64,000 nucleotides of DNA, taken from NCBI RefSeq assembly GCF_003610535.1, contig NZ_RAPN01000001.1:2839320-2903319 (forward strand), in the 5' to 3' direction. A program made the position numbers and the translations under genes. A model generated the notes under the pieces. It made no database searches and was not told the DNA's origin. It was given only the letters and a program-made list of their open reading frames with translations. The DNA comes from Mangrovibacterium diazotrophicum. Lineage in GTDB: Bacteria; Bacteroidota; Bacteroidia; Bacteroidales; Prolixibacteraceae. Below, in pieces: positions 9,970 to 27,643 of the stretch (positions are counted from its first letter, which is position 1; every line of letters begins with the position of its first letter).

Positions 9970-11229
9970 TTACTTGCGATGTTTAACTTCGCTCGCCGGC
10001 ACAATCTTATAAAGTTTGTCCGAACGCCGGATTTTCTCCGAAAGTTTAACCGAGAAAAGTTCGCCTTTCTTCGTTTCCTGCACCGGTTTCAAATCCACCC
10101 GGATCTCGTCAATAACAGTTTCGATGACACCTGAGCTTGGGCCGGTAACCAATATTTTGTCGCCCACTTTCAGCGAGCCTGTTTCCATTTTAAACTCGGC
10201 CACACCAATATTGGGGAAATAGTTCATGCCCTTTCCGATGTACATTTTGCGTTCGGTAGCCAGCGATCCGTAGTTTGCGCTCCACTCGCCCAAGCGTTGT
10301 CCCAGGTAGTAGCCGTCCCAAAAGCCACGATTGAAAACCGTTTGCAAACGAGTATCCCATTCCTCTATTTTTTCTTCGGTAAAGTTACCTTCAAAATAGG
10401 CGTCAACCGCTTCGCGATAGCACTGCACCACCGTTTTCACGTACTCGGGTGCCCGGGCACGTCCTTCCACCTTCAATACCGAAACACCGGCATCGAGCAG
10501 TTTATTCAGGAAATGAATGGTCTTCAAATCCTTTGGCGACATGATGTATTCGTTGTCAATCTCGAGTTCAGCGCCGGTTTCTTTGTCAGTCACCGTGTAG
10601 GCCCGGCGGCAGGTTTGCATGCAGCTTCCGCGGTTAGCCGAACTGCTCATTTCGTGCAAGCTGAGGTAACATTTGCCCGACACCGCCATGCAAAGCGCAC
10701 CGTGCACAAACATCTCAATCTGGATCAGCTCGCCTTTGGGGCCGCGAATATCCTGTTCCTTGATCTTGCGGCTGATTTCAGCCACCTTCTCCATGTCCAT
10801 TTCGCGCGCCAGCACCACCACATCGGCAAACTGCGCGTAAAATTTCACAGCCTCAAAGTTTGTAATGTTCACCTGTGTTGAAATGTGAACTTCAACACCA
10901 ACCGAACGGGCATATAAAATGGCTGAGATATCGCTGGCAATAATAGCCGAGATCCCGGCTTCCTTGGCAGCGTTGATCACTTCGTGAAGCTTGTCCAGCT
11001 CATGATCAAAAATGATAGTATTGACCGTCAGGTAGGTCTTTACGCCGTGGCTGTGCGCCTTTTCGGCAATCGAACGCAAGTCATCCAAGGTGAAGTTATT
11101 GGATGAGCGCGAACGCATGTTCAGGCCTTCAACACCAAAATAAACAGAACCGGCACCTCCCTGAATAGCTGCAGCCAGTGACTCGTACGAGCCAACGGGC
11201 GCCATTATTTCTATATCTCGTCTTTCCAT
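9970..11229 (-). CDS. U32 family protein (TrhP/RlhA/YhbU-like)
   Basis: 419 residues. The U32 signature EMFVHGALCMAVSGKCYLS spans about residues 172-190; further cysteines follow at about 203 and 207, giving the four-Cys set (180, 187, 203, 207) expected for an iron-sulphur site. The N-terminal barrel starts with EIMAPVGSYESLAAAIQGGA, as in other members. Characterised bacterial relatives mainly act in RNA hydroxylation (tRNA uridine-34 or 23S rRNA C2501) with prephenate as hydroxyl source; the old peptidase label is doubtful. Which RNA is modified here cannot be decided from sequence. Confidence 0.9.
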   Translation of the reverse strand: MERRDIEIMAPVGSYESLAAAIQGGAGSVYFGVEGLNMRSRSSNNFTLDDLRSIAEKAHSHGVKTYLTVNTIIFDHELDKLHEVINAAKEAGISAIIASDISAILYARSVGVEVHISTQVNITNFEAVKFYAQFADVVVLAREMDMEKVAEISRKIKEQDIRGPKGELIQIEMFVHGALCMAVSGKCYLSLHEMSSSANRGSCMQTCRRAYTVTDKETGAELEIDNEYIMSPKDLKTIHFLNKLLDAGVSVLKVEGRARAPEYVKTVVQCYREAVDAYFEGNFTEEKIEEWDTRLQTVFNRGFWDGYYLGQRLGEWSANYGSLATERKMYIGKGMNYFPNIGVAEFKMETGSLKVGDKILVTGPSSGVIETVIDEIRVDLKPVQETKKGELFSVKLSEKIRRSDKLYKIVPASEVKHRK

Positions 11230-11449: not shown

Positions 11450-14400
11450 CTACTGTGCCAAGGTGAAGCGAAAGCTCATCCCAAAGCTGGTGGTTGAGCT
11501 CGGATAAGATGACGAGGTAAAAGGATTATTGATGACTTTATCGTAGTACAGTTTCAGCTGAAACCGGTCGCTCAGTTGGTAATCTGCTGAAGTTTTCAAA
11601 GTAACTGCATTCTGCCCTGCCGACAATTGATCGTCCTCTTCGGCAATGTCCCGCAAAACGGTTTTGTTCTTTTTGAAGGACATATCAATTTTAATATTGA
11701 GGTCGTTCGAGTAGGCTTTCTGCCCGCTTTTGGATTTCAAAATCAGGTCCATTCTCGGGAAACGGTAGCCAAGCCCCACTGAAATCTCCCGACTCTGAAC
11801 CTCTGTCAGCTGATCGGTTGAAAAACTCACCGTAAGGTTCCGGGTCCGGTTTATTTCAATACTCGTCGACAGGTCGTTCAGCCAGGTGACATCCAGGTTG
11901 ATCAACGGATTCAATTGCTCCGTGATACTGACCGAACTGATATCGTATTGGGAGACAAAGTCGCCGGTTGAGCTGTTCATCACGTAACTCCAGCCATCGC
12001 CGAATTCGGTGTCATCGTAATCCAGGTTAGTTGAATAACTCCCGATGTTATAAGTAGAACGATAGGAATGGCTCAGGCTGATCGACTTGGCAACCCGGTT
12101 CAAGCCTTTAATTTTCGAAACCAGACCATCGTAAGTAATCCGCCAGTTTGGCCGCAGGTATTTCAACGAGGGCAAAGGGTTAAGCGAAACTTTGTCGGGC
12201 GACTGCCCGGTGTAAGCGGCAATAAAAGCAGGAATCAACACTTCCTGCGATGTTGGCCCGTAGCCCCAGGGGAACTCGGTTTCGGGGTTGTTATCCTCCG
12301 GGTTGTAGCCAGCCTCTGCATTCGCTACTCTTCGGGCAGCCAGCCGCCGGGCAATGGTCTCGCGATAATCCAGCATGTTTTGATAGGCTTCCGGTGTTTC
12401 AACACTGGCGTCACCAATTTTCTCGAAAGCTGTTCGCCAGGTGTTGATTGACATGGTGAAGTTGCCGCTCACCGTCCGGTTTGAAGGATTGAAAACATCG
12501 TTTTCCACATCGTACAAATAGTATTCACTGGAGTTCTCCGAGGCTGAGCGACTTCCGCTCAAGTTCACATTTAGATTGGGGATCGGGACCAAGCTCGCCT
12601 GAAAACTCCAGGCCTCGTTATGGCTCATGATGTAGGGTGAATTGAGTGTCGTGTCTTTCGTAATCCAACCTTTCAAGGCTGCTTTGCGGGCAAAATCTTC
12701 GTCCTGCCATCCAAACAAAAATGGCAGCCCCGGCGCGTTGGTCGATGCAATTTCACCAAACATGGAAGGATCAGGATCGTAATGCGCTGAGCCGAAAACG
12801 GAGGGCTCCGGCATGAATCCCGGTAGGACTGTCCCGTCGGAAGATGAATAAACCGCACTGAAACTCTTCAACATCATCGCCGTCCGCGCCGAATACTGAG
12901 CAGCATTGTAGAGCCAGTTGTTTTCGATTTTGCGCTTTCCGTTAATCTCAACCTGCGCCTTATCAATCGGTTTGCGACTTTGAATACTCACCTCATTTTC
13001 GTTCAGCACCTTGGTTGTCACGCGAACTTGCAACCCTTCCTCATCAAAAACCTTCACCTGAACATCTTTGGTTTTTAAGTGGTGATGAATAACCGTTTCC
13101 TGATTCGCCTCAACCGGAACTTTTTTGTCCTTGTACGAAACCTCCCGAATGCGAACATCGGGCATTTGCGTTTGGCGGCTTTCTGCTGCCTTGGCACGGG
13201 CACTCGAGCTACGGGCCGAACTTGTTCCTGTTCCAAAACGTTGGTTCACGCTTTTCAGAAACGGAACTTTATTGTACAGCGTGTTAAAGTTCAGCTGCGC
13301 ATTTCCCTGCATCACCCTTGTGTTTTCAATCACGTTCCCCAACTCAACCGTTTCATCGGTCACCGAGCCGGCCGTCCAATCGTAGCCAGCCTGGTAGCGC
13401 GCAGTGGCGTTAGTCCAGTTTAAGAGGTCAATTTTATTCAACGGCAACTGGTAAGTCACATTCAGCACATGGTTGTATAAAATCGGTCGCCCCAGATTCA
13501 GCAAGTTCGACAGGATCGAGTCCTTCTTCAGCTGGTAATCGTCATCCGATTTATTGATCACCCCTTCCGGCTCGTCAATCCGGGCCGTTCCTTCCGACGA
13601 AAAACTAACGATCAGCGATTTGGTCAGATTATACCGCAAGTTGAAACTCCGCTTCCAAAGAAAATCTTTGTTCACCGTAACCGGAACCTCCACATCCGGA
13701 TCAGTCACATTCCGGGTTTGTGTTTCATTGTAATATCGGTACAGGTTGTTGATGTACGAAATCTGCGTTGGCATCAACGAAAAGTTGAAATCGCGAATCA
13801 GGCGGAAAGCATTCCCCTTTAACAGGTTTACTTTTTTAAAGGGTTCGTACACTTTCGGACGATTATTATAAACGTAGCTCAAAATCAACCGATAGCTCTT
13901 CTCAATGTCGTATTCGGTGTACACATCCCGATCCAGCTGCTTGTTGTAAGAAAACGATACCGAGAAATTAGCAGGGTCAATCAGGCTAGTTTTATTATCC
14001 TTTCGAATCTTCTTATCCACTTTCACATTGTTAAAAATAATGCTGCTCGATTTGGAATAGGTTTGCATGAGGTTCTTCAGTGAGTCTTTTTCCGATTTTG
14101 AACTGGCATTCGCCAGGGTCTCCGACATGGTCACATCGGGATCGAGCGGGTTGTAATACGGGTTGCTCACACTTTTCGAAAGGTTCAGAAAAACCGGGAT
14201 CTTCACCTGCGCTTTCGACGGGAAAAACTTACCCATATCAAAATTACCGGTGATATCGTAGGTGCTCACATCCTCATCCGAGCGCTCGCTGACGCTTTCG
14301 TCAATACTCCCGAAACCGGCAGAAGTATGGCTTCCGGCAAAAGTAACTGTTCCAAAGTCGGCCAGCTTAGCCGTCGTTCTCACATTTGCCGCCCAACCGC

Positions 14401-17400
14401 CGTTGTCCTCCAGCCCGGTTAAACGAAGCTCATCCGTCCAAACCTCAACCGATTTGTCGGTAGTTTGCAAGGTTGACGATTTATGCCGAATCCCCAGCAT
14501 CATCACCTGCACATTGCCCAGGTTGGGACTACCTTTAATTTTCACCAGATTTTTGCCGTCGTTCCAATCATCGTGCGCCACTTCATACACATCGGTGAGC
14601 GATAAAGTCGAGCCACTTTCGCGCATGTCTGCATTCCGCGCCAACTTGGTGTTGGTAAACAAGGTGAACGGAATATTGATCCGGTTTTCGTCGGGCCACA
14701 CAATGTAGCGGTCGGATTCGAGATTCCCGTTGTAGCTTCCGGCGGGCGTTAGTTTCAACGGAAGTTCGTACTCGTAGTAGTTGTCGTTGTAATCCGATCC
14801 GAGGCGCATGAAAAAATAGAGGTCATCGTCATCCAGATCTGATCCTTCAATTGCTTCGGCATGCACTTCCAGCTTCAACCGCTTGTAGGGTCGAAAATCC
14901 AGGTTGATATTTTTGTATGCAGCGCGCGAATCGCCTTGTTCCAAGTCCTCAACTTTCAGCAACAGCGATTGCTCATCCTCCTGCACCAGGTACGAACTAC
15001 TGTAGTCGACCTCCCGTTCAATATCGGGCGGCAAAATATAGTTAACCGGTTCCTTCTGGCTGTTTTCCTCGATGTTTACAGCCGAAACTTCAAACGAGGT
15101 ACTGGCTCCCAGGTTTGCGCTATTGTCTTCCAGGTTATCGCTGTATTGGCGCCATTCTGCCCTAACCAAATCCAGCGTTGCCAGGCGCAAAAAGGTTGGC
15201 TGCTCGAATCCCCGCATAAACATCCGGATAAAACGAATCGACGAAAAATCTCCAATATCACCGACAACCTCATCCGGCGAGTCAATCGGAATTTTAAACT
15301 GATACCACTTCACATCGCTCACTTGACCATTGGCCAGTTCAACGCTGGCAGTGCGAACATCGCTGATGTTATTCTGCCCAACCACCATGTCTTCTGGTCG
15401 CAGGCTAACGTGATACTGAAAGTAATTCTCCGTTTCGCTCAGCGTATTATCATCGTTAATATCCTCGCAGTTGGGCGTGGTTGATGCAGAGGTTGAATAA
15501 GACTCGGGCGAATACGAAGCCGGAACCGAGTTTCCCTCCGGCCCGTTGTATTTCTTATAGCGGTCCAGGATACTCAGCTCATTCTGGTCGTAATCGCTTC
15601 CCCTGAAATAGTGATAATCATCGGCTGACGGGTCCGTTGCAATTTCCTCATAGGCCGACTGAGACGTGATATTCTGGACGCTCTGCAAATACTGATCATG
15701 AAAAGTCATCTCATCTGCATCCGACAAGCCGTCGAAACCAACATCCTGGTTCAGGATCGTCTCGTCATCACTTACAAAAGCCGTGGTAAGTTGGTTTTGG
15801 GTTGAAACCCGCCCCCAAACAGTGGTGTCAACATCAGTAATCAATGCCGATTCCGGCAGACCATTCTCAAATGACTTGTAAGAATCTTTGAGGACGTCTT
15901 CGGAAATATCACCCAGGTTGAAATACAAATCTCCACCGGTGTCCGTTCCGTCATCGTTATTCACAAACGGGTCCATCATCCAAAAAGAGATGTATTCGAT
16001 GTTGGCCGATTCGAAATCGGTCGTTGTGATTTCCCGCATAATTCCCCCCCAACGAGTCGTTGGTTCGGCCAATGTCCCGTCCGGGTTCAAACCCGATGAA
16101 TAGGAAGACGAGTTTAAATCGAAGTTGTACGGCCCCCGCTCATTCGGATAAAACGCCATGTTCAATACGGAGAGTATGGAGGTTTCTCCCGCATCGAGCT
16201 CCTTGTCGGGATAAATTTCCTGCACGTATACCTCGCGCACCAGGTTGTCCGACTGTTGCTCCGTGTCCTGTTTGATATGCGAAGGTGTGAGTGTGGTGTT
16301 GCGCAAAAACAGCGGATCGATATTGTACCAGGCAAAACGGGCACGGTTATATCCGTAGGCCAAATCGTCGTAAAGGTCGCCTTCGGGAAACAGATCCGAC
16401 TGCCCCTGCGGCGTACTGGCCAACACCCAAGCCTGACGGGCACTGAGATCGATATCTGTTTCCGACGCTTCAAAATCGTCAATGTAGACCGTCCCGTCAG
16501 TTGCACTGGATTCGCCGACAATCAGCTTGGCAACCTCAGCCTGCACAGCAATCGACGACTTTTCCTTGGTCTCCAGAAAAGGTAATTTGTCGACCAGGTT
16601 GGTCAGGAACTGCGACTCGGTTGTATAATTCAAATCGAGCCCCAGCATGGTGTTGGAGACCGGTTCACTGCCGTAATTCACTTTTTGCGAGATGGGAGTT
16701 TCGTTGAGATAAAGGGCTGTTGCTCCCAAATTGAAATTGTCCGAAAAAGCATAGTTCATGTGCGTCCCCAACAAGGTTTTCGTTTGCACCGAATACAAAT
16801 CCTGGCTTTCCACCGAAATCTGGAGACTAGATCCGGAATCTAAATAGGTCGGGTTAATAATCTTCACCCTTCCCAACGTGTAGTCGACCGTGTAATCAAC
16901 ATACTCCGTCAGTGTAACCCCGCCGGAGGTGACGGTAACCGAACCTTGTGCCAGGTTGATCGTCCCCAGGGAGATCTCGGAACTGGATGATCCGGAATAG
17001 GTTCCTTTCAGCTTGTACTTGTCGTGCTCGGCATCCTGCTTGGCATAGGTTTTCGTCGTATCGTACAAACTTTGATAGCCGTACTTTTCCTTGTAAATAC
17101 TACTGTTCATCTGGTTGGTCAGGTAGCTGCCGAAAGGCTCCAGACATGGAAAAATGATGCGTCCTTTCTCGGCTTGCACGGTAATACCGTCAACAAAATC
17201 GAAAGCCCCGTTACTTCCCTTATCCAGATTGGCATCCAGGTTATCCAGGTTTAAAACACTCAGCAGCGTTTTGCCCGCCAGGTTCGACGACGGCAAATAA
17301 TTGACATAGCTTCCGGTAGAGTCGCTCAAAACAGTGACATTCATAACAAAGTCATCGCTGTTCAAATCGTAAGCATCCAGGCTGTAAACGTTCTTCATCA

Positions 17401-18991
17401 TCAGGTCCCAGGTCGGCAATGTCGGCGTAAAACTCGTTCCTTTCAGCAACTTCACCACCAGCACGCCGGGCGAAGTTACTTCGGAAGCAAACTCCCCGAC
17501 CTGGTAGGTCTTGCCGTTAGCGGTGTAGTTGTAAGCAACCGCCAGCACCTCATCCGAATTCAAGGCCGAATTCAGCGAGATGTAGCCCAAATTTGTGTTG
17601 ATCGTGTATTCCGAAGAACTCAGTTGTCGCGCTTGTTGCACCTTCTCGTAATCTTTACCCGACTTAAATCCATAAGATGAAAAAGCCGACATCGTCTTTG
17701 TTATCGACGATACGGTTCGGATATCGGAATAGTCCTCGGTAATGGAACTGTACATTTGGTTGGCATCATTGTACGGATAAACGCTTTCCGGGTACGTGTG
17801 CCCGGCCTGCTCCTGAAAGGAAGGAACCGAATTATAAATGTTATCGTCGTGTTCGCCAAGATCCATTAAGGCCAGAATATTTCGTGCGCTGGTGTAGCTC
17901 CCCGACTTGTTCGTCACCCAAACTTCAATTTTGTTGATGGTGATCGCCGAATTGACAACCGGCATATTTTTCAGGGCATTGTCGTAGGTATCGCGGAAGT
18001 ACTGCGAGAGAAAAAAGTGCTTGTTCGCATCGTAGTCCGAAGCATCAATCTCGAAAGTCGTTGTTTGCGCGCCGCCTTCAACCTGTATGGTTTTGGTTTC
18101 GCCTTTACTCTGCGACAGCACAGTCGACACACTCAGCTTCCCGAACTGCATATCGGTGCGCACACCAAACAGGTTGGTTGCTCCTTTAATCAGGCTTCCA
18201 TTCAGGGGGAGCGAAACATTGCCCGCCTCTATTTTTTTGATGATTTCGTCTTCATCGCCCGAATAATCGAGCTTCATTTTGTTCTCGTAATCGAATGTCG
18301 CTTCGGTGTTGTAGTTCACCTGCATCTTCATTTTGTCGCCGATGCTACCCGTCAGGTTCATCTGAATTTTCTGGTCGAAGTCGAAGGTAGGTACCTTGCG
18401 CTGACGTTCAGAAAGCGACGGATTATCGACCGTGTTCACCTGGTAACCAAAACTGACTTCCACAAAACCCTGGGTCCGGATGTCAATGTTATTCCCGCCG
18501 AAAATCTTGTTGAATGCCTCGCCGTTCACCGTCAAACTCGGGAACAAACCTCCCTGCCCCGTCGTTTCCTGTTCTGCAGATTTGGTTCTCCAATAATTCC
18601 GAATGGAGTTCTGCATGTCGTAACGGATATATTCCTGAAGTGACAAAACTTTGGGCAAGCGATAATCGAAATCACCAACTTTTTCAGTCAAAATGTATTG
18701 CCCGGTTACCGGATCGTATTCAACTTCAGTTCTGATATTGGAAGGTTTCTTCAGGTAAATCGCCGACTGCTGGCTTGAATCGGCGTACTCAAACGCCTGC
18801 TCATCTTCGAAAGGGTAAACCAGCACACCGGTTGTGTCCAGTCCTGCCGAAACCTGGTTCACGGAATCCATAGGTGCAAATGGGAAATCCGGCTTTCCAG
18901 CCGAACGACCGGTAGCCACAAAAGTTGAAGCGATAGCCAAAACTCCGGCTAAAACCATCTTGACCGATGAAATTCGTCCAATTGTTTTCAA
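11450..18991 (-). CDS. sprA: T9SS outer-membrane translocon SprA/Sov, second (downstream) paralog
   Basis: 2513 residues from a TTG at 18991, preceded by AGAAGGAG. That start gives MKTIGRIS, matching the MKTYLRNS start of the neighbouring paralog and equal total length; an earlier start at 19042 would add 17 residues without homology. A signal sequence (about 1-32) is followed by SprA hallmarks: EVEYDPVTGQY at 89-99, GEAFNKIFGGNNIDIR near 157-172, and a long run of beta strands ending in SFGMSFRFTLAQ. SprA/Sov forms the giant 36-strand pore through which T9SS cargo crosses the outer membrane; known proteins are about 2400-2500 residues. Two copies in tandem are unusual. A separate promoter is likely in the 506-bp AT-rich spacer upstream. 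Confidence 0.95.
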   Translation of the reverse strand: MKTIGRISSVKMVLAGVLAIASTFVATGRSAGKPDFPFAPMDSVNQVSAGLDTTGVLVYPFEDEQAFEYADSSQQSAIYLKKPSNIRTEVEYDPVTGQYILTEKVGDFDYRLPKVLSLQEYIRYDMQNSIRNYWRTKSAEQETTGQGGLFPSLTVNGEAFNKIFGGNNIDIRTQGFVEVSFGYQVNTVDNPSLSERQRKVPTFDFDQKIQMNLTGSIGDKMKMQVNYNTEATFDYENKMKLDYSGDEDEIIKKIEAGNVSLPLNGSLIKGATNLFGVRTDMQFGKLSVSTVLSQSKGETKTIQVEGGAQTTTFEIDASDYDANKHFFLSQYFRDTYDNALKNMPVVNSAITINKIEVWVTNKSGSYTSARNILALMDLGEHDDNIYNSVPSFQEQAGHTYPESVYPYNDANQMYSSITEDYSDIRTVSSITKTMSAFSSYGFKSGKDYEKVQQARQLSSSEYTINTNLGYISLNSALNSDEVLAVAYNYTANGKTYQVGEFASEVTSPGVLVVKLLKGTSFTPTLPTWDLMMKNVYSLDAYDLNSDDFVMNVTVLSDSTGSYVNYLPSSNLAGKTLLSVLNLDNLDANLDKGSNGAFDFVDGITVQAEKGRIIFPCLEPFGSYLTNQMNSSIYKEKYGYQSLYDTTKTYAKQDAEHDKYKLKGTYSGSSSSEISLGTINLAQGSVTVTSGGVTLTEYVDYTVDYTLGRVKIINPTYLDSGSSLQISVESQDLYSVQTKTLLGTHMNYAFSDNFNLGATALYLNETPISQKVNYGSEPVSNTMLGLDLNYTTESQFLTNLVDKLPFLETKEKSSIAVQAEVAKLIVGESSATDGTVYIDDFEASETDIDLSARQAWVLASTPQGQSDLFPEGDLYDDLAYGYNRARFAWYNIDPLFLRNTTLTPSHIKQDTEQQSDNLVREVYVQEIYPDKELDAGETSILSVLNMAFYPNERGPYNFDLNSSSYSSGLNPDGTLAEPTTRWGGIMREITTTDFESANIEYISFWMMDPFVNNDDGTDTGGDLYFNLGDISEDVLKDSYKSFENGLPESALITDVDTTVWGRVSTQNQLTTAFVSDDETILNQDVGFDGLSDADEMTFHDQYLQSVQNITSQSAYEEIATDPSADDYHYFRGSDYDQNELSILDRYKKYNGPEGNSVPASYSPESYSTSASTTPNCEDINDDNTLSETENYFQYHVSLRPEDMVVGQNNISDVRTASVELANGQVSDVKWYQFKIPIDSPDEVVGDIGDFSSIRFIRMFMRGFEQPTFLRLATLDLVRAEWRQYSDNLEDNSANLGASTSFEVSAVNIEENSQKEPVNYILPPDIEREVDYSSSYLVQEDEQSLLLKVEDLEQGDSRAAYKNINLDFRPYKRLKLEVHAEAIEGSDLDDDDLYFFMRLGSDYNDNYYEYELPLKLTPAGSYNGNLESDRYIVWPDENRINIPFTLFTNTKLARNADMRESGSTLSLTDVYEVAHDDWNDGKNLVKIKGSPNLGNVQVMMLGIRHKSSTLQTTDKSVEVWTDELRLTGLEDNGGWAANVRTTAKLADFGTVTFAGSHTSAGFGSIDESVSERSDEDVSTYDITGNFDMGKFFPSKAQVKIPVFLNLSKSVSNPYYNPLDPDVTMSETLANASSKSEKDSLKNLMQTYSKSSSIIFNNVKVDKKIRKDNKTSLIDPANFSVSFSYNKQLDRDVYTEYDIEKSYRLILSYVYNNRPKVYEPFKKVNLLKGNAFRLIRDFNFSLMPTQISYINNLYRYYNETQTRNVTDPDVEVPVTVNKDFLWKRSFNLRYNLTKSLIVSFSSEGTARIDEPEGVINKSDDDYQLKKDSILSNLLNLGRPILYNHVLNVTYQLPLNKIDLLNWTNATARYQAGYDWTAGSVTDETVELGNVIENTRVMQGNAQLNFNTLYNKVPFLKSVNQRFGTGTSSARSSSARAKAAESRQTQMPDVRIREVSYKDKKVPVEANQETVIHHHLKTKDVQVKVFDEEGLQVRVTTKVLNENEVSIQSRKPIDKAQVEINGKRKIENNWLYNAAQYSARTAMMLKSFSAVYSSSDGTVLPGFMPEPSVFGSAHYDPDPSMFGEIASTNAPGLPFLFGWQDEDFARKAALKGWITKDTTLNSPYIMSHNEAWSFQASLVPIPNLNVNLSGSRSASENSSEYYLYDVENDVFNPSNRTVSGNFTMSINTWRTAFEKIGDASVETPEAYQNMLDYRETIARRLAARRVANAEAGYNPEDNNPETEFPWGYGPTSQEVLIPAFIAAYTGQSPDKVSLNPLPSLKYLRPNWRITYDGLVSKIKGLNRVAKSISLSHSYRSTYNIGSYSTNLDYDDTEFGDGWSYVMNSSTGDFVSQYDISSVSITEQLNPLINLDVTWLNDLSTSIEINRTRNLTVSFSTDQLTEVQSREISVGLGYRFPRMDLILKSKSGQKAYSNDLNIKIDMSFKKNKTVLRDIAEEDDQLSAGQNAVTLKTSADYQLSDRFQLKLYYDKVINNPFTSSSYPSSTTSFGMSFRFTLAQ

Positions 18992-19497
18992 CACCTTTCT
19001 CCTTCTGCAAAATAGTGCGCCAATCGCTGGCGAAAACCCCAACCCTGTTTTTCAGAAGGTTGTCGATCCGAGACCTATTTCGCCTTTAACTTGCTTTCTG
19101 TTTTTCCTGTAAATCGCGGGTATTACTGATGCTGAAAACGCACTTCAGAAGCTGGTATTGTATGCGAAAATCGTCGAAATCGAACACTCAAAAAGCCTAT
19201 TTACAATTGAAAATCAATCAATTGATCATAACCATAGAGATCAAACAACAAAGATGTTCGCTGATCAACCTAATTCAATTTGATAGATTAAATCACCCTA
19301 AATAAAAGGCATTCAACTGTATTATAATAAAATATGATAAATCAGAGGCATTTTATTATGACAACTATTGCTGTGGAAAAATGAATAGAGGAAAAGATTT
19401 GTAGTAAATAATATCACAAGATATTAGTTTACATAACTCATCAGATAAAGAGATTGAAAAAAATTCAAAAAATTTTACTGGTGTAATTTGCCCGCAT
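18992..19497. other. AT-rich spacer between the two sprA genes
   Basis: No ORF of coding character was found. The region is clearly richer in A and T than the flanking genes, with runs such as AAAATTTTTTGAATTTTTTT near the end of sprA1, and probably holds the terminator of sprA1 and the promoter of sprA2. No clear GC-rich hairpin and no exact TAnnTTTG element was identified on the minus strand. Confidence 0.5.
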
Positions 19498-22400
19498 CTA
19501 TTGGGCCAAAGTGAAGCGGAAGCTCATACCAAAACTGGTGGTTGCCGTTGGGAAAGCGGAGGAAGTGAAAGGCTTGTTCACAACTTTATCGTAATACAAA
19601 CGCAACTGGAAACGGTCGCTCAACATGTAATCAGCCGTTGTTTTCAAGGTAACTGCATTCTGACCTGCAGTCAGCTGGTTATCGTTTTCTTCCAGCTTCC
19701 GGAGTATCGTTTTGTTTTTACGCAATGCCAGGTCGGCCCGAATATTCAGGTCGTTCGAGTAGGCTTTTTGGCTACTTTTCGATTTAATAATTAAATCCAT
19801 GCGCGGGAAACGGTAGCCAAAGCCAAACGAAATCTCGTTGCTCAACACTTCGGTCAACTGGTTATTGGCAAAGTTCAGCGTCAGGTTACGGGCACGTTTA
19901 ATTTCAACCCGTGTCGACATGTCGTTCAACCAGGTCACATCCACGTTAATCAGCGGGCTGAACATCTCTGAAATACTGACCGAATTGATATCGTATTTCG
20001 AAACGAAGTCGCCGTTCAACTCATTCATCTCGTAACTCCACCCGTCACCAAAAGATTGGTCGTCGTAGTTGAGATTGGTAATGTACGAACCGATGTTGTA
20101 GGACGAGCGGAACGCATGATTCAGGTTCACCGACTTAGCCACCTTATTCAATCCCTTAATTTTTGAAACGACACCGTCGTAGGTAATTCGCCAATTTGGC
20201 CGCATGTATTTCAAGGACGGGAACGGGTTCAGCGAAACTTTCTCAGGCGCCTGACCTGTGTATGCCGCGATAAAGGCCGGTATCAACACCTCCTGCGAAG
20301 TTGGTCCGTAGCCAACAGGGAATCCTGTTTCCGGGTTGTTGTCACCGGGAACGTAACCAGCCTCGGCATTCGCAACACGTCGGGCATCCAACCTCCGGGC
20401 AATGACCTCGCGATAATCCAGCATATTTTGGTAAGCTTCCGGAATCTCGACACTGGCATCGCCAACTTTCGAGAAGGCAGTACTCCAGGTATTCACCGAC
20501 ATGGTGAAGTTCCCCTTCAACGTGCGGTTTTGAGCGTTGAAGTCGCCGGTATTGATATCGTAGATGTAATATTCACTGGCATTTTCAGAGAACGATCTGT
20601 TGGCTTCCAGGTCGATCCGCAGGAATGGAATTGGTTCCAGGTTTGCGCGGAAAGCCCAGGTTTCATTGTGACTCATCACATAAGGTGCATTCAGGGTTGT
20701 GTCTTTGGTAATCCAGCCTTTCAGCGCAGCCTTGCGGGCAAAGTCATCATCCTGCCATCCGAACAGGAACGGGAATCCCGGAGCACTGGTCGAGGCAATC
20801 TGCCCAAACATCGCCGGATCCGGGTTATAATGTCCCGAACCGAAAATAGCCGGTTCAGGCATAAATCCGGGCAGTAAAGTACCATCCGAAGAAGAATAGG
20901 TTACATTAAAGTTTTTCACCATCATCGCGGTGCGGGCCGTGTATTGGGCAACCGTGTACATCCAGTCATTTTCAATGCGGCGCTTTCCGGTAATCTCAAT
21001 GCGCCCGGCATCAATATCGGAACGGGACTGGAAGCTAACCTGGTTTTCATCGATCACTTTTACGGTGCCCCTCACCTGCTGCCCTTCCGCATTGTATACT
21101 TTCACCTGAACATCGGTGGTCTTTAACTTATGGTTGACAACCTTCGCTGCGTTGGCTTCAAACTTAATCCGATTGTCTTTGAATTCCACATCGCGGATGC
21201 GGAACTCGGCTTTGCTCTGAGCCTGAGAACTGGCCATCCGGGCACGGGAACTCGAGCTTCTGGCTGAGCGGCTACCCCCTCCGAATTTCTGGTTCACCTC
21301 TTTCAGGAAGGGAACTTTATTGTACAGGTTGATGAACGAAGCCTGACCGTTGAACTGCATCACGCGCGAGTTTTCCATCACGTTACCCAACTCAATGGTT
21401 TCATCGGTAATAGTACCGGCCGTCCAGTCGTACATCGCCTGGTAGCGTCCCGTTGCCGTCACCCAGTTTAGCAGATTGATTTTATTAATCGGCAGCTGAT
21501 AAGTTGCATTCAGCACGTGATGATAAAGCACGGGGCGTCCCAAATCAAAAAGGTTTCGAAGAATCGAGTCCTTCTTCAACTGGTAGTCATCATCGTTGCG
21601 GTTGATTCGGCCCAGCGGCTCATCAATTCGTGCTGTTCCCTGCGATGAAAAATCAATTTTCAACGAACGGGTCAGGTTGTATCGTAAATCGAAATTCCGG
21701 CGCCAGATAAAGTCTTTTTCCACTGTCAATGGAATTTTCAGATCCGGGTTCGAAATATTGCGTGTTTGAACTTCTTTGTAGTAACGGTACAACTCGTTTC
21801 TGTACGAAATCTGGGTCGGCATCAAGTAGAAGTTGAAATCACGAATCAAACGGAATGCATTCCCCCGGAGCGCCTTCGTTTGCCGGAAAGGCTCATAGAG
21901 TTTCGGCCTGTTATTGAAATTGTAACTCAGAGCCACGCGGTAACTTTTTTCGACACTGTAGGCTGTATTCACATCTCGGTCCCGCTGCTTGTTAAAGGCA
22001 AAAGAGCCGGAGAAGTTCGTCGGATCCCAAAGTTTCGGTGTTCCCGACTTATTCATTTTATCCACCTTCACATTATTCAGCACAATGGTCGTTCGCTTCG
22101 AATAATCCTGCGCCATTCGTTTTATCGAATCGCGCTCCGACTTCGTTTCGGCGGCAGCCAAGGTCTGTTCCATCGTAATATCCGGGTTCAGCGGATCGTA
22201 TTCCGGGTTGCTCACGCTTTTCGAGACACCAACGTAAAGTGGAATTCTCACCTGAGCTTGTTTCGGGAAGAAACGTCCGAGCTCGAAGTTCGAAGAAATA
22301 TCATATTCGGTCAGGGCCTCCTGCGAACGTTCATTGGCGTTTTGATCAATACTTCCAAAACCAACCGAACGATGTCGTCCGGCAACCACTACCGATCCAA

Positions 22401-25400
22401 AATCGGCCAAGCGAGTCGAAACACGCATATTGGCAGCCCAGCCTCCATTGTTATCCAGTTCGCTCAAACGCAGTTCATTGGCCCAAACTTCAATCGACTT
22501 TGGAGGAGTTATCAAGGTTCCCGCTTTATTCCGGATCCCCATCATCATCACCTCAACATAGCCCAGGTTTGGATTACCTTTTACCTTAATCAGGTTCTGG
22601 TTATTGTTATAATCTTCATGAACAAGTTCATATATATCAGTCAACTGCAAGTTCGAATCCGCCGACCTCATGATGGCATTGCGCTCCAATTTTGCATCGG
22701 TGAAAATTGAAAGCGGGATATTAATCCGGTTTTCGTCAGGCCAAACAGCTATTCGGTCCGCTTCAATGCTACCGTTGTAAACACCCGGATCAGTCAGCTT
22801 CAGCGGAACTTCGTATTCGTAATAGTTGTAATTATAATCCGATCCCATCCGAATGAAAAAATACAAGTCGTCATCCTGTAATTCTTCCCCCTCAATCGCT
22901 TCTGCGTGAACTTCCAGCTTCAGTCGTTTGTACCGACGGAAATCCATGTTGATCGATTTGTAAGCAGCACGGGCATCGCCTTGTTCAAGGTCCGTTACTT
23001 TAAGAGTCATCGACTGTTCATTCAGCTGCAACAACTGAGCGTTTGCAGGGTCAATCACCCGGTCAATTCCCGGAGGCAACACATAATTGACCGGCTGGCG
23101 ATCGCTGTTTTCTTCAATGTTGACAGCAGAAACATCGAATGTCGTATTTGTTCCCAGGTTATTGCTGTTCTCTTCCAGATCGTCGGTGTATCGGCGCCAG
23201 TCGGCCCGAACCAGATCCAAAGTTGCAAAACGCAAAATCACAGGATCCTGGAATTGGCGCAGGAACATACGCATGAAACGAATAGACGAGAAATCAGAAA
23301 TACTTCCGACCGTCGCTTCCGGCTGTTTCACCGGAACCTTAAACTGGTACCATTTTACCTCTCCCACATTCCCGTTAGCCAAGGTGACCCGGGCAGTACG
23401 GACATCGGTAATGTAGTTGTTCCCCAACTGCATATCGCCCGGGCGGATACTCAAACGGTACTGATAGTAGCGCTCGTATTCGCTCAAGGTATTATCATTG
23501 TTAATGTCCTCTCCATCCGGTAAAGTTGAAGCAGACGTTGTGTACGACTCGGTTGAGCGGGAAGCCGGCCGCGAGTTACCTTCAGGGCCATTGTATTTTT
23601 TATAACGATCGAGGATACTCACCTCATCATTGTCATAGTCGGTTCCGCGATAATAGTGATAGTCGTCCCCCGAGGGGTCTTCGGCAAAATTCACATAGGT
23701 CTGCGGATCCAAAATATTTTTAAGGACAGCCAGATAGCCGTCGTAAAAACTCTGTTCATCTGTGTCCGACAAGCCATCGAAACCAACATCCTGACGAAGA
23801 ATCACATCCGGATCGGTCACAAAGCTTTTGGTGATTTGGGTTTTGGTTGAAACACGCCCCCAGATAGTTGTGTCAACATCCGAGATCAAATCCGTTTCCG
23901 GCAATCCATTTTCATAAGACTTCCGGGAGTCTTTCAGGACGTCTTCAGAAATATCACCAAGATCAAAATACAGATCCCCTCCGGACATGGTGCCGGTACT
24001 GTCGTTCACAAAAGGATCCATCATCCAGAACTCGATGTATTCGATATTCGCCGCTTCAAAGTCGGTTGTTTCAATCTTCCGCATGATACCGCCCCAACGC
24101 GATTCCGGATCAGCCAGCGTACCGTCCGGGTTCAAACCGGCCGAATAAGGGCTCGGGTCGGTATCGAAGTTGTACGGACCGCGTTCTTCCGGGTAATAGG
24201 CCAAATCCAAAACCGAGATGTTTGTTGGCACACCAATTTCAACATCTTTGTCGGGCCAGATTTCCTGTTGATAAACCTCGCGCACCAAGTGATTGGACTG
24301 CTGGTCCAGGTCGTTTTTGATGTGCGATGGCGTTTGCGCGGTATTCCTCAGGAAGAGTGGGTCGATGACATACCAGGCTAGTTTTGCCCGGTTGAAACCG
24401 TAAGCCAGGTCATCGTCCAGATCCCCTTCCGGGAACAGCGATGGTTGATTCTGCGGCGTACTGGCCAGCATCCATGCCTGGCGAGCACGCAGGTCAATGG
24501 AAGTTTGCGTTGACTCAAAGTCATCGATATATACAGTACCATCCGTCACGCTCGAATTGCCGACAATCAACTTGGCGACTTCAGCCTCTACGGCAACCGA
24601 TGATTTTTCTTTCGTCTCGATGAAGGGCAACTTATCGACCAGCCGCGTCAGCAACTGCGACTCGGTATTGTAGGTCAGATCCAAGCCGAGCATGGTGTTC
24701 GATATCGGATCTTCACCGTAATTCACTTTCTGTGTCAACGGGCGTTCGCTCATGTGCAAAACGGTACCCCCAAGGTTGAAGTTATCTGAGAATGCATAGT
24801 TCATATGCGTTCCCAGCAAAGTCTTTCGCTGAACCGAGAACAGGTCTTCACTTTCGGTAGAAACCTGAAGCGACGTTCCCGATTCAAGGTAAGTTGGGTT
24901 AATGATTTTTACCCGGCCAAGCGTGTAGTCAACTGTGTAATCCAAACCTTCGGTCAGTGTGATCCCCCCGGCTGTTACCTTTACCGATCCCTGTGCAAGG
25001 TTGACTGTTCCAAGGGAAATCTCGGAGCTGGATGCCCCGCTGTAGCTTCCTTTCAGCACGTATTTGTTGTGCTCTGCATCTTGTTGCGCGTAAGTTCTTG
25101 TTGAGTCGTAAAGACTTTGGTAAACGTATTTGTTGCGGTAAGCCTGATCTGTGATTGAATCGCCCAGAAAGCTGCCAAAGGGTTCGACAGATGGAAATAC
25201 AATTCGTCCGGTTGACGACTGCACCGTCACCCCATCGATAAAGTCGAAAGCACCATTGCTACCCGGATCGAGCTGCGAATTGAGGTTATCCAGGTTCAAC
25301 ACATTCAGCAAAATGTGACCTTCCAGGTTCGACTCCGGCAAGTAGTTGATCAGCGTTCCGGTGGTTTCATTCTGGTATAGCACATGCAACTCAAAATCTT

Positions 25401-27039
25401 CACTGTTCAGCGAATAGGCATTCAGGTTGTAGATGTTCTTCATCATCAACTTCCAGGTAGGAAGTTTCGGCGACAAGTTGGTTCCTTTCAACAGTTTCAG
25501 CACCAAAGTTTCCGGTGCGTCAATCCCGTCAGTCGAAAATTCACCAACCTGGTACGTTTTTCCGTTTGCCGTGTAGTTGTAGGCAACCGCCAACACCTCG
25601 TCGGTATTCAAAGCCGAGTTCAGCGAGATGTATCCCAACTGAAGGTTCACGGTATATTCTGACGAGCTCAGTTTCCGCGCCTGTTCAATCTTCTCAAAAT
25701 CCTGCCCGCCATTAAATCCGTAGCCCGAAAAACTGTTCATCGTTTTCGTGATCTGCGACACATCGCGAATGGCAGCGTAGTTGTCAATCAACTCGCGGTA
25801 CATTTTATTCGCGTCGTTGTACGGATAGATGTTGTCCGGGTAGGGCAAACCGGTATTCCCTTCGAAACCGGGAACACTGTTGTAAATATTTTTGCTTTGT
25901 TCAGCCAGGTCCATCAGCGCCAAAATGTTTCGCGACTCGCTGTAATTACCCGACTTGTTGGTCACCCAAACTTCTATTTTGTTGATTGTAATCGCTGACT
26001 GAACCACAGGCAGGTTGCTCAAGGCTTTATCGTAAGTATCCCTGAAATATTGCGAAAGGAAGAAGTGGCGGTTGGCATCGTATTCCGACGCTTTCAACTC
26101 GAAAGATGTCTTCTGGGCTCCCCCCTCAATATCCACAACTTTCGTTTCACCCTTGTTTTGCGAGAAGATGGTCGAAACGAAAAGTTTGCCAAACTGCATG
26201 TCGGTTTTTACACCAAACAGGTTGGTGGCACCGGTTATCAGCGATCCGTTCAATGGCAATGACACGTTACCCGCTTCAACCTTCTTGATAATCTCATCTT
26301 CATCACCCGAGTACTCCAGGTTCATTTTGTTTTCGTAATCGAAGGTCGCTTCGGTATTGTAATTCACCCGCATCTTCATCTTTTCGCCGATGCTGCCGTT
26401 CACGTTCATCTGGATCTTCTGATCGAAGTCGAAGGAGGGAACTTTTCGCAGACGCTCGGGGATTGACGGGTTCTCGGTTGAATTCATCTGGTAACCGAAG
26501 CTGACTTCCACAAATCCCTGGGGACGAATGTCGATATTATTACCGCCAAAAATCCGGTTGAAAGCTTCTCCCCCTACCGAAAGACGAGGAATCAAGCCTT
26601 CGCGTAGTTCCTGATCCTGTTCTCCGGAACGTTGACGCCAGTAATTGCGGATTGAATTTTGAAAATCGTAGTGAACATATTCCTCAAGCGACATCGCCCT
26701 CGGCATGCGATAATTTATGTCACCGACCTTTTCGGTCATGATATACTGCCCTGTTACGGGGTCATATTCAACCTCTGTGGTAATATTTGAAGGTTGCTTC
26801 AGAAATAGCCCCGATTGGGACTCCGGATCGGAATAATCGAACTCTTTGCGGTCGTCGAAAGGGAAAATCAAGACACCCGTGGTATCAACTTCAAGGGTGT
26901 CAACCCAGCTTGAATCAGCCGTTTGTGAAAATTCTGAGGAACGCTGAGCATACTCAATACCCGGCACCGAAGTCCAGCCCATCGCCAGAACCCCCGCAAA
27001 AATGACCAGAAGTAATGAATTTCTCAGATATGTTTTCAA
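19498..27039 (-). CDS. sprA: T9SS outer-membrane translocon SprA/Sov, first (ruvA-linked) paralog
   Basis: 2513 residues from TTG at 27039; an in-frame TAA four codons upstream leaves this TTG as the only start before Met20, and it yields a normal signal peptide (MKTYLRNSLLLVIFAGVLAMG). Key segments: EVEYDPVTGQY at 89-99, GEAFNRIFGGNNIDIR at 157-172, a DEDEIIKKVEAGNVSLPLNG segment near 265, and a C-terminus SFGMSFRFTLAQ. The protein is the outer-membrane pore of the type IX secretion system. It begins 19 bp after ruvA, a linkage common for sprA in Bacteroidota, which suggests that this is the ancestral copy and the downstream gene the duplicate. The two copies are similar along their full length. 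Confidence 0.96.
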   Translation of the reverse strand: MKTYLRNSLLLVIFAGVLAMGWTSVPGIEYAQRSSEFSQTADSSWVDTLEVDTTGVLIFPFDDRKEFDYSDPESQSGLFLKQPSNITTEVEYDPVTGQYIMTEKVGDINYRMPRAMSLEEYVHYDFQNSIRNYWRQRSGEQDQELREGLIPRLSVGGEAFNRIFGGNNIDIRPQGFVEVSFGYQMNSTENPSIPERLRKVPSFDFDQKIQMNVNGSIGEKMKMRVNYNTEATFDYENKMNLEYSGDEDEIIKKVEAGNVSLPLNGSLITGATNLFGVKTDMQFGKLFVSTIFSQNKGETKVVDIEGGAQKTSFELKASEYDANRHFFLSQYFRDTYDKALSNLPVVQSAITINKIEVWVTNKSGNYSESRNILALMDLAEQSKNIYNSVPGFEGNTGLPYPDNIYPYNDANKMYRELIDNYAAIRDVSQITKTMNSFSGYGFNGGQDFEKIEQARKLSSSEYTVNLQLGYISLNSALNTDEVLAVAYNYTANGKTYQVGEFSTDGIDAPETLVLKLLKGTNLSPKLPTWKLMMKNIYNLNAYSLNSEDFELHVLYQNETTGTLINYLPESNLEGHILLNVLNLDNLNSQLDPGSNGAFDFIDGVTVQSSTGRIVFPSVEPFGSFLGDSITDQAYRNKYVYQSLYDSTRTYAQQDAEHNKYVLKGSYSGASSSEISLGTVNLAQGSVKVTAGGITLTEGLDYTVDYTLGRVKIINPTYLESGTSLQVSTESEDLFSVQRKTLLGTHMNYAFSDNFNLGGTVLHMSERPLTQKVNYGEDPISNTMLGLDLTYNTESQLLTRLVDKLPFIETKEKSSVAVEAEVAKLIVGNSSVTDGTVYIDDFESTQTSIDLRARQAWMLASTPQNQPSLFPEGDLDDDLAYGFNRAKLAWYVIDPLFLRNTAQTPSHIKNDLDQQSNHLVREVYQQEIWPDKDVEIGVPTNISVLDLAYYPEERGPYNFDTDPSPYSAGLNPDGTLADPESRWGGIMRKIETTDFEAANIEYIEFWMMDPFVNDSTGTMSGGDLYFDLGDISEDVLKDSRKSYENGLPETDLISDVDTTIWGRVSTKTQITKSFVTDPDVILRQDVGFDGLSDTDEQSFYDGYLAVLKNILDPQTYVNFAEDPSGDDYHYYRGTDYDNDEVSILDRYKKYNGPEGNSRPASRSTESYTTSASTLPDGEDINNDNTLSEYERYYQYRLSIRPGDMQLGNNYITDVRTARVTLANGNVGEVKWYQFKVPVKQPEATVGSISDFSSIRFMRMFLRQFQDPVILRFATLDLVRADWRRYTDDLEENSNNLGTNTTFDVSAVNIEENSDRQPVNYVLPPGIDRVIDPANAQLLQLNEQSMTLKVTDLEQGDARAAYKSINMDFRRYKRLKLEVHAEAIEGEELQDDDLYFFIRMGSDYNYNYYEYEVPLKLTDPGVYNGSIEADRIAVWPDENRINIPLSIFTDAKLERNAIMRSADSNLQLTDIYELVHEDYNNNQNLIKVKGNPNLGYVEVMMMGIRNKAGTLITPPKSIEVWANELRLSELDNNGGWAANMRVSTRLADFGSVVVAGRHRSVGFGSIDQNANERSQEALTEYDISSNFELGRFFPKQAQVRIPLYVGVSKSVSNPEYDPLNPDITMEQTLAAAETKSERDSIKRMAQDYSKRTTIVLNNVKVDKMNKSGTPKLWDPTNFSGSFAFNKQRDRDVNTAYSVEKSYRVALSYNFNNRPKLYEPFRQTKALRGNAFRLIRDFNFYLMPTQISYRNELYRYYKEVQTRNISNPDLKIPLTVEKDFIWRRNFDLRYNLTRSLKIDFSSQGTARIDEPLGRINRNDDDYQLKKDSILRNLFDLGRPVLYHHVLNATYQLPINKINLLNWVTATGRYQAMYDWTAGTITDETIELGNVMENSRVMQFNGQASFINLYNKVPFLKEVNQKFGGGSRSARSSSSRARMASSQAQSKAEFRIRDVEFKDNRIKFEANAAKVVNHKLKTTDVQVKVYNAEGQQVRGTVKVIDENQVSFQSRSDIDAGRIEITGKRRIENDWMYTVAQYTARTAMMVKNFNVTYSSSDGTLLPGFMPEPAIFGSGHYNPDPAMFGQIASTSAPGFPFLFGWQDDDFARKAALKGWITKDTTLNAPYVMSHNETWAFRANLEPIPFLRIDLEANRSFSENASEYYIYDINTGDFNAQNRTLKGNFTMSVNTWSTAFSKVGDASVEIPEAYQNMLDYREVIARRLDARRVANAEAGYVPGDNNPETGFPVGYGPTSQEVLIPAFIAAYTGQAPEKVSLNPFPSLKYMRPNWRITYDGVVSKIKGLNKVAKSVNLNHAFRSSYNIGSYITNLNYDDQSFGDGWSYEMNELNGDFVSKYDINSVSISEMFSPLINVDVTWLNDMSTRVEIKRARNLTLNFANNQLTEVLSNEISFGFGYRFPRMDLIIKSKSSQKAYSNDLNIRADLALRKNKTILRKLEENDNQLTAGQNAVTLKTTADYMLSDRFQLRLYYDKVVNKPFTSSAFPTATTSFGMSFRFTLAQ

Positions 27040-27058: not shown

Positions 27059-27643
27059 TTACAGGCTTTTTAGGGCCGCTTTAATCATCTGCTCGACGGT
27101 GATTCCCGGATTTGTTTTTAAAATTTTATCCAGTTCTTTCTCAACACTTTTACGTGCGAAACCGAGCATAACTAAAGCAGATAACGCTTCATCGCGGATA
27201 GTATTGTCTGCGCCGGTCATTAAAATTTGGTCGCTAACCGGCTGTTTTCCTATTTTATCTTTCAAATCGATGATGACCCGCTGAGCAGTCTTAGCTCCAA
27301 TACCTTTGATGCTTTTCAACAGGTTCACATTTTCCTCCAAAATCGCCCTTTTTATCTCATCCGGGGTCAAAGATGAGAGCATCATCAAGGCTGTGCTCGA
27401 GCCAATTCCATTCACCGAAATCAACAAGCGAAACAGCTCACGTTCAGCCTGATCGGCGAATCCATAAAGCAAGTGTGCATCTTCGCGAACGACTTGATGC
27501 AAATACAGAATAACGGACTGTTTTCCGTTAATTGCGGAGTATGTATTTAACGAAATGTGTATAAAATAACCAATCGATCCGGCTTCAATTACGGCGTTTG
27601 CCGGTGTCAATCCGGTGATTTTTCCGGAAATATATTCATACAT
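27059..27643 (-). CDS. ruvA: Holliday junction branch migration protein RuvA
   Basis: 194 residues, the usual size. The N-terminal OB fold begins MYEYISGKITGL; two helix-hairpin-helix motifs read SVNGIGSSTALMML (about 76-89) and SIKGIGAKTAQRVI (about 111-124); a C-terminal UBA-like domain (about 150-194) contacts RuvB. RuvA tetramers bind four-way junctions and guide RuvB-driven branch migration. It sits between pdxA (53 bp upstream) and sprA (19 bp downstream), probably in one transcript. Confidence 0.97.
   Translation of the reverse strand: MYEYISGKITGLTPANAVIEAGSIGYFIHISLNTYSAINGKQSVILYLHQVVREDAHLLYGFADQAERELFRLLISVNGIGSSTALMMLSSLTPDEIKRAILEENVNLLKSIKGIGAKTAQRVIIDLKDKIGKQPVSDQILMTGADNTIRDEALSALVMLGFARKSVEKELDKILKTNPGITVEQMIKAALKSL

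Follow-up and report, generated by a model that had tools for sequence, protein, structure and literature searches.

Two full-length genes for SprA/Sov, the giant pore that exports proteins in the Bacteroidota and is described as the sole cargo pore of the T9SS, lie head to tail after ruvA on the minus strand of the Mangrovibacterium diazotrophicum window (the whole stretch of 64,000 nucleotides that was analysed), in the order ruvA, copy A, copy B. Site-by-site comparison with other SprA proteins shows a shift of constraint in copy B that recurs in the second copy of another tandem of the same family. The parts are already known; what is new is the tandem arrangement and the parallel shift.

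The equivalog model of the T9SS outer membrane translocon Sov/SprA (TIGR04189, 2319 positions, curated cut-off of 200 bits) matches copy A from position 4 to position 2318 with 2725.1 bits and copy B, taken in the frame from 19042, from position 3 to position 2318 with 2621.6 bits; Pfam SprA_N (PF14349) matches two stretches of each copy. Together with the Pfam families of the neighbours (Table 1), these matches bear out the sequence-only reading, according to which two full-length SprA genes follow one another after ruvA, and the full-length matches and the lack of frame damage agree with its view that neither copy is broken. The two proteins align over 2514 columns with an identity of 69% and 2 gaps (BLAST), and by eye both N-termini have a charged start and a hydrophobic stretch. 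The SprA of Flavobacterium johnsoniae (PDB 6h3i, 6h3j, 8gl6 and 8gl8) is a homolog of copy A (phmmer E-value of 0), the homology spanning A residues 78-1892 and 2040-2510. The fold expected of this translocon is a barrel of 36 strands that opens laterally and carries a cap, and a predicted model of A residues 1095-1655 (561 residues) matches the SprA fold of 8gl8 with a TM-score of 0.58 by query and an rmsd of 8.9. In their accessible parts, papers on the T9SS mention one SprA, whereas the genome of the window has two.

Table 1. Coordinates of the features of the tandem sprA locus, in window positions.
Feature	Position	Strand	Basis or remark
ruvA	27059-27643	-	Pfam RuvA_N/HHH_5/RuvA_C; directly upstream of copy A
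Copy A, SprA/Sov translocon, 2513 aa	19498-27039	-	TIGR04189, 2725.1 bits
Copy B, second SprA/Sov translocon, 2513 aa, TTG at 18991	11450-18991	-	TIGR04189 and translation
A-B spacer, AT-rich, 506 bp, 34% GC	18992-19497	no strand	Sequence
Peptidase U32 family gene, neighbour downstream of copy B	9970-11229	-	Pfam PF01136
Hot segment of A, residues 1326-1350	22990-23064	-	Strongest hot spot common to both second copies
Hot segment counterpart in B	14945-15019	-	Changes specific to B at 12 of the 25 residues, against 3.1 expected

The complete SprA frames of the ORF listing run from 11450 to 19042 and from 19498 to 27039, both on the minus strand. The TTG start of copy A (27039) is conserved, since 'GCGGTATTGAAAAC' is also found 5' of sprA in two other genomes of the genus, G001 and G002; it lies 19 nt past the ruvA stop, and from this gap we infer that A is probably co-transcribed with ruvA. 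For copy B, the TTG that matches that of A leads to a protein of 2513 residues and an alternative TTG further upstream, at 19042, to one of 2530 residues. Counted on the A-B alignment, EVEYD (89-93) and IFGG (163-166) do occupy the same positions in both copies, as had been pointed out. The exactly equal length that had been stressed alongside is right as a count, both proteins having 2513 residues from TTG, but it carries no significance: it is due to chance, because the two gaps of the alignment cancel and the single copies of the congeners, read from the same start, have 2510 (G001, 7530 nt) and 2514 residues (G002, 7542 nt). The peptidase U32 gene is also found 3' of sprA in G001, G002 and a third congener, G003. 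The two SprA matches of the window genome (G000; 10 contigs, 5.8 Mb, 100% complete) are A and B, and both are on one contig.

Such a pair is rare. Among the matches listed, two full-length copies were found in 2 of the 140 genomes of the family, the genome of the window and G089, a copy-number survey that upholds the statement that SprA is usually encoded once; G001, G002 and G003, the remaining genomes of the genus, have one SprA each, the G003 one in pieces. The survey of the order comprised 392 genomes. Rescanning took in 24 that had several hits and 80 that had candidates without a score, another 5 were settled separately, and about 40 fell outside the settled set (tally by eye); no second full copy was present among the rescanned or settled genomes, the window genome apart. 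In the class (296 genomes, no more than two candidates being scored per genome) a second full copy was found in none of the 30 multi-hit genomes that were rescanned. Three genomes (G140, G127 and G027) were rejected as two-copy genomes: each has a full copy and a large piece, at contig ends, that was read as a foreign contig. Each piece has an identity of 35-50% with the full copy of its own genome and is closer to other lineages, one of them being 91% identical to the first copy of G089. G092 and G113 were also rejected because their second matches are weak. Searches of the openly licensed literature brought up no paper that deals by its title with a second SprA, and the available part of PMC11354047 names a single one.

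The survey also brought up partial SprA frames. In the single-contig genome G488 (C1:158871-164700) SprA is seemingly split into separate frames. Three genomes of the order have frames whose match is confined to the central part of SprA (about 764-1190 of the model) in addition to a longer SprA match, which in G332 has one internal TGA: G201 (C32:27193-28470, 570 aa), G425 (C54:20911-22185, 476 aa) and G332 (C8:28146-29374, 350 plus 135 aa). Their boundaries are much alike, and a free-standing protein of the SprA mid-domain is possible. A frame of about 750-1330 aa that weakly matches model positions of about 604-653 was present in 37 of the 54 multi-hit genomes that were rescanned in the order and class, hinting at a motif shared with another protein.

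The two copies are old. Synonymous sites between A and B are saturated (pS of 0.705, pN of 0.200, dN/dS of about 0.11 or less) and no identical run exceeds 20 nt; by these substitution values both copies are under purifying selection. Copy A has an identity of 86% with the lone SprA of G002 and of 75% with that of G001, copy B one of 68% with either, and the mixture-model tree joins A with G002 (100/99) and B with G001 (100/99). The AU test rejected A and B as sisters (p of 2e-10), a group of A, B and G002 (0.0003) and a group of A, G002 and G001 without B (0.006). When the two pieces of G003 were added, G003 joined G001 and B stayed with both (100 and 91). The single SprA of G001 and G003 is thus the closest relative of B in the tree, although these genomes, unlike the window, have one copy, found directly after ruvA. 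The grouping of B with G001 had a support of 99 on the slowest 60% of sites, on the slowest 80% and without the hot windows, and it was recovered in all four quarters of the protein (56, 92, 96 and 98, the first being weak). Long-branch attraction was rejected as its cause, since it holds on slow sites, under the mixture model and with the G003 pieces; recent gene conversion between A and B was rejected as well, given the 20-nt longest run and the result in the four quarters.

Derived states that B has in common with one copy only amount to 43 sites for G001, 9 for A and 10 for G002, part of the 43 necessarily being due to chance because the G001 branch is longer. There is also a counter-signal of 19 sites at which A, G001 and G002 have the same derived state and B the outgroup state, and in a larger set of sequences the exclusive sharing of B was no higher with G001 (7/66) than with G002 (4/39). 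In the flanking genes, G000, G001 and G002 lie at almost the same distance from one another (81.6-84.5%, four genes), and the tree of these genes joins the window genome weakly with G002 (59/49). With equidistant flanks, the difference between 86% and 75% is as expected if the G001 copy is not the ortholog of A. Position and tree make A the ortholog of the single SprA of G002, and the groupings place the split of A and B before that of A and G002. The data thus point to one of two histories: in the first, B disappeared from G002 and A from G001/G003; in the second, B was transferred. The second, in which B came from the G001/G003 lineage and was inserted beside the native copy, is a possibility that we take seriously without holding it to be the probable one. 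B groups with G001/G003 and the flanking genes put its genome, weakly, with G002; however, the GC make-up of B is that of A (GC3 of 0.597 and 0.578) and differential loss accounts for the tree equally well. A lateral origin would in any case be compatible with the function proposed below.

G089 is a 7.8-Mb single-contig genome of another genus (code g11) of the family, and its tandem resembles that of the window: two full-length copies are arranged head to tail after ruvA, they are 64% identical to each other, and the second one (L064) is the more diverged and is changed at sites overlapping those of B. Unlike B, L064 belongs to a different clade of the family, where the placement of its long branch is uncertain (support of 76), and the sister grouping of the two G089 copies was rejected weakly (AU p of 0.034, compared with 2e-10 for A and B).

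We then looked at where B and L064 have changed. Site rates were taken from 57 other SprA sequences, and the changes of the two second copies were compared with those predicted by the rates. On the slowest 40% of sites the ratio of change to expectation was 1.61 for B and 1.40 for L064, that of 39 other SprA sequences, including A and the first copy of G089, ranging from 0.33 to 1.41 (0.91 for G001). At fast sites, B had 162 changes where 212 were expected. The excess profiles of B and L064 along the protein were correlated (rho of 0.565 over fifty windows, with references named by us), and all of the 741 control pairs among the 39 sequences remained below this value (maximum of 0.528). With the nearest four sequences as references and ten window settings, rho for B and L064 ranged from 0.375 to 0.676 and 0 to 2 of the 741 control pairs were as high.

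States new to 33 sequences of the family occurred in both B and L064 at 51 sites, where 23.9±4.4 were expected, a count reached by none of 2000 shuffles. The state was identical at 19 of the 51, mildly above the controls (276/1005). Pooled over 150 control pairs, common novel sites were 1.22 times as many as expected. One control pair, L033-L019, had 26 sites against 9.4, with a z of 5.91 (6.21 for B and L064) and a higher ratio of observed to expected; the novel-site measure taken alone is therefore not unique to tandems. Common ancestry of B and L064, or exchange between them, was considered and is not favoured, the share of identical states being near that of the controls and the two proteins belonging to different clades.

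The strongest hot spot common to both second copies is at residues 1326-1350 (Table 1), where L064 has 10 changes against 3.7 expected, followed by residues 919-943. In the model of A 1095-1655 this hot segment comprises a loop and, after it, the first strand of a beta domain; the mean pLDDT of the model is 78, but it is 56-57 in the hot loop and below 50 for seven of its residues. G001 and G003 retain the family states at 1328, 1331, 1333 and 1335, which places the changes of B at these sites after its split from G001/G003. A mild excess is also seen in G001, in two windows that are hot in B and L064 (1301-1350, 8 against 4; 2351-2400, 11 against 5), so that some of the release may predate this split; the G001 profile is weakly correlated with those of B (rho of 0.24, p of 0.095) and L064 (rho of 0.27, p of 0.054). 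Of the 259 sites that are invariant in SprA, A being among the sequences that define invariance, B keeps 257 and thus changes 2, while about 48 changes would be expected from an even spread (469/2513, simple proportion); L064 changes 4. At residue 1328 both second copies have reached E, which is present in 27 of 143 SprA segments (B, counted twice, and L064 among them). The few invariant sites hit and the occurrence of E1328 elsewhere speak for an alternative working state, not decay. B also has cysteines at residues 616 and 1175, 45 of 59 SprA sequences having none after residue 30. The accessible part of PMC12635249 describes SprF-GldK and PorG-GldK disulfides, and no connection of the B cysteines to these was found in it.

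We hold it moderately probable that a single T9SS runs two translocon isoforms in this organism, B being the one with shifted constraint. A would be the copy of the ruvA unit and B a second isoform kept under selection as a working translocon, whose constraint would have shifted at normally slow sites after the split from the G001/G003 copies. Each isoform would be inserted in the outer membrane and interact with the single PorV, and one motor would power the two, the sharing of motor and shuttle forming part of the proposal. B would accordingly be expressed, assemble and export cargo, and its shift would be functional and not a relaxation by redundancy. Relaxation driven by redundancy could likewise raise change at slow sites, which counts against the isoform reading: B would then serve as a backup or for dosage, its constraint having loosened as A does the work, and a dispensable interaction served by the same segments in both tandems would explain why these loosened twice. 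Such a spare copy, to which the excess of substitutions at slow sites and the patchy retention (a lone copy in G001, G002 and G003 alike, fragmented in the last) would both be congenial, is in our view unlikely. Indeed, only two invariant sites have changed and no frame damage has appeared after silent saturation, and the deficit at fast sites (162 against 212) indicates a shift towards slow sites, with an excess that is patterned along the protein.

The PorV shuttle and CTD cargo of a T9SS are both present in the genome of the window. Its PorV family search gave one strong match (460.9 bits) and a weaker one (183.7 bits) taken for a putative PorQ, and revealed no PorV duplicate in this genome or in G089. 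CTD cargo (TIGR04183) has 32 matches in the window genome, 36 and 18 (two near-complete genomes) and 13 (genome 85% complete) in the congeners, 71 in G089 and 26-92 in four single-copy genomes of genus code g11. The shuttle and cargo counts thus give no sign of a second route. G158 (L198, L200) presents the reverse of the window: PorV has strong matches of 441.0 and 341.7 bits there, next to a single SprA, which is a member of the L033-L019 pair with its excess of common novel sites.

The sequence-only reading had also suggested that two pores could divide the cargo, A and B exporting different sets of proteins, and this we consider rather improbable. According to the available part of PMC10994853, the CTD of type A cargo of F. 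johnsoniae binds PorV loops and the SprA cavity, with about 1,000 square angstroms of its surface buried against SprA, so that changes in the pore could alter its preference. However, the genome has one strong PorV match and an ordinary number of CTD matches (32, next to 36, 18 and 13), and in F. johnsoniae sorting is done by the shuttle, type A cargo going through PorV and type B cargo depending on shuttles of its own, as far as the accessible part of PMC12618676 goes.

The A-B spacer is AT-rich as had been said, with 34% GC over 506 bp compared with 47% for the window. The -7 consensus of the Bacteroidetes is TAnnTTTG. No such element was present in the 506 bp, and separate control of the two genes, for which the spacer had been thought to leave room, is therefore without sequence support. 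Sigma-70-like matches in the spacer were near chance (3, with 2.2 expected). A short hairpin (19018-19032, minus strand) lies just 5' of the B start; there was one terminator-like match (0.5 expected), and the folding of its region was no better than that of shuffles. That the tandem is an assembly artefact or a recent copy can be dismissed, no point in its favour having been found, while the check for it returned 31% protein divergence, silent saturation, a longest identical run of 20 nt, both genes on one contig of a genome that is 100% complete in 10 contigs and a similar tandem in a single-contig genome.

Returning to the two isoforms, it is a tentative and rather doubtful extension that some Bacteroidota would run one T9SS on such a pair and that 'SprA2' would be a repeatable functional type and not a spare, the extra pore having been reshaped at least twice at many of the same sites, for instance so as to prefer a different cargo, shuttle or mode of sealing. 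A natural pair of SprA proteins in one cell, together with a single-copy sister of each and a parallel tandem, makes an informative comparison, which could show the parts of the pore that are relevant to cargo, shuttle docking or sealing. The changed sites common to B and L064 form a short list for mutagenesis, and the parallel changes of the second tandem make the question of two pore versions in one cell testable.
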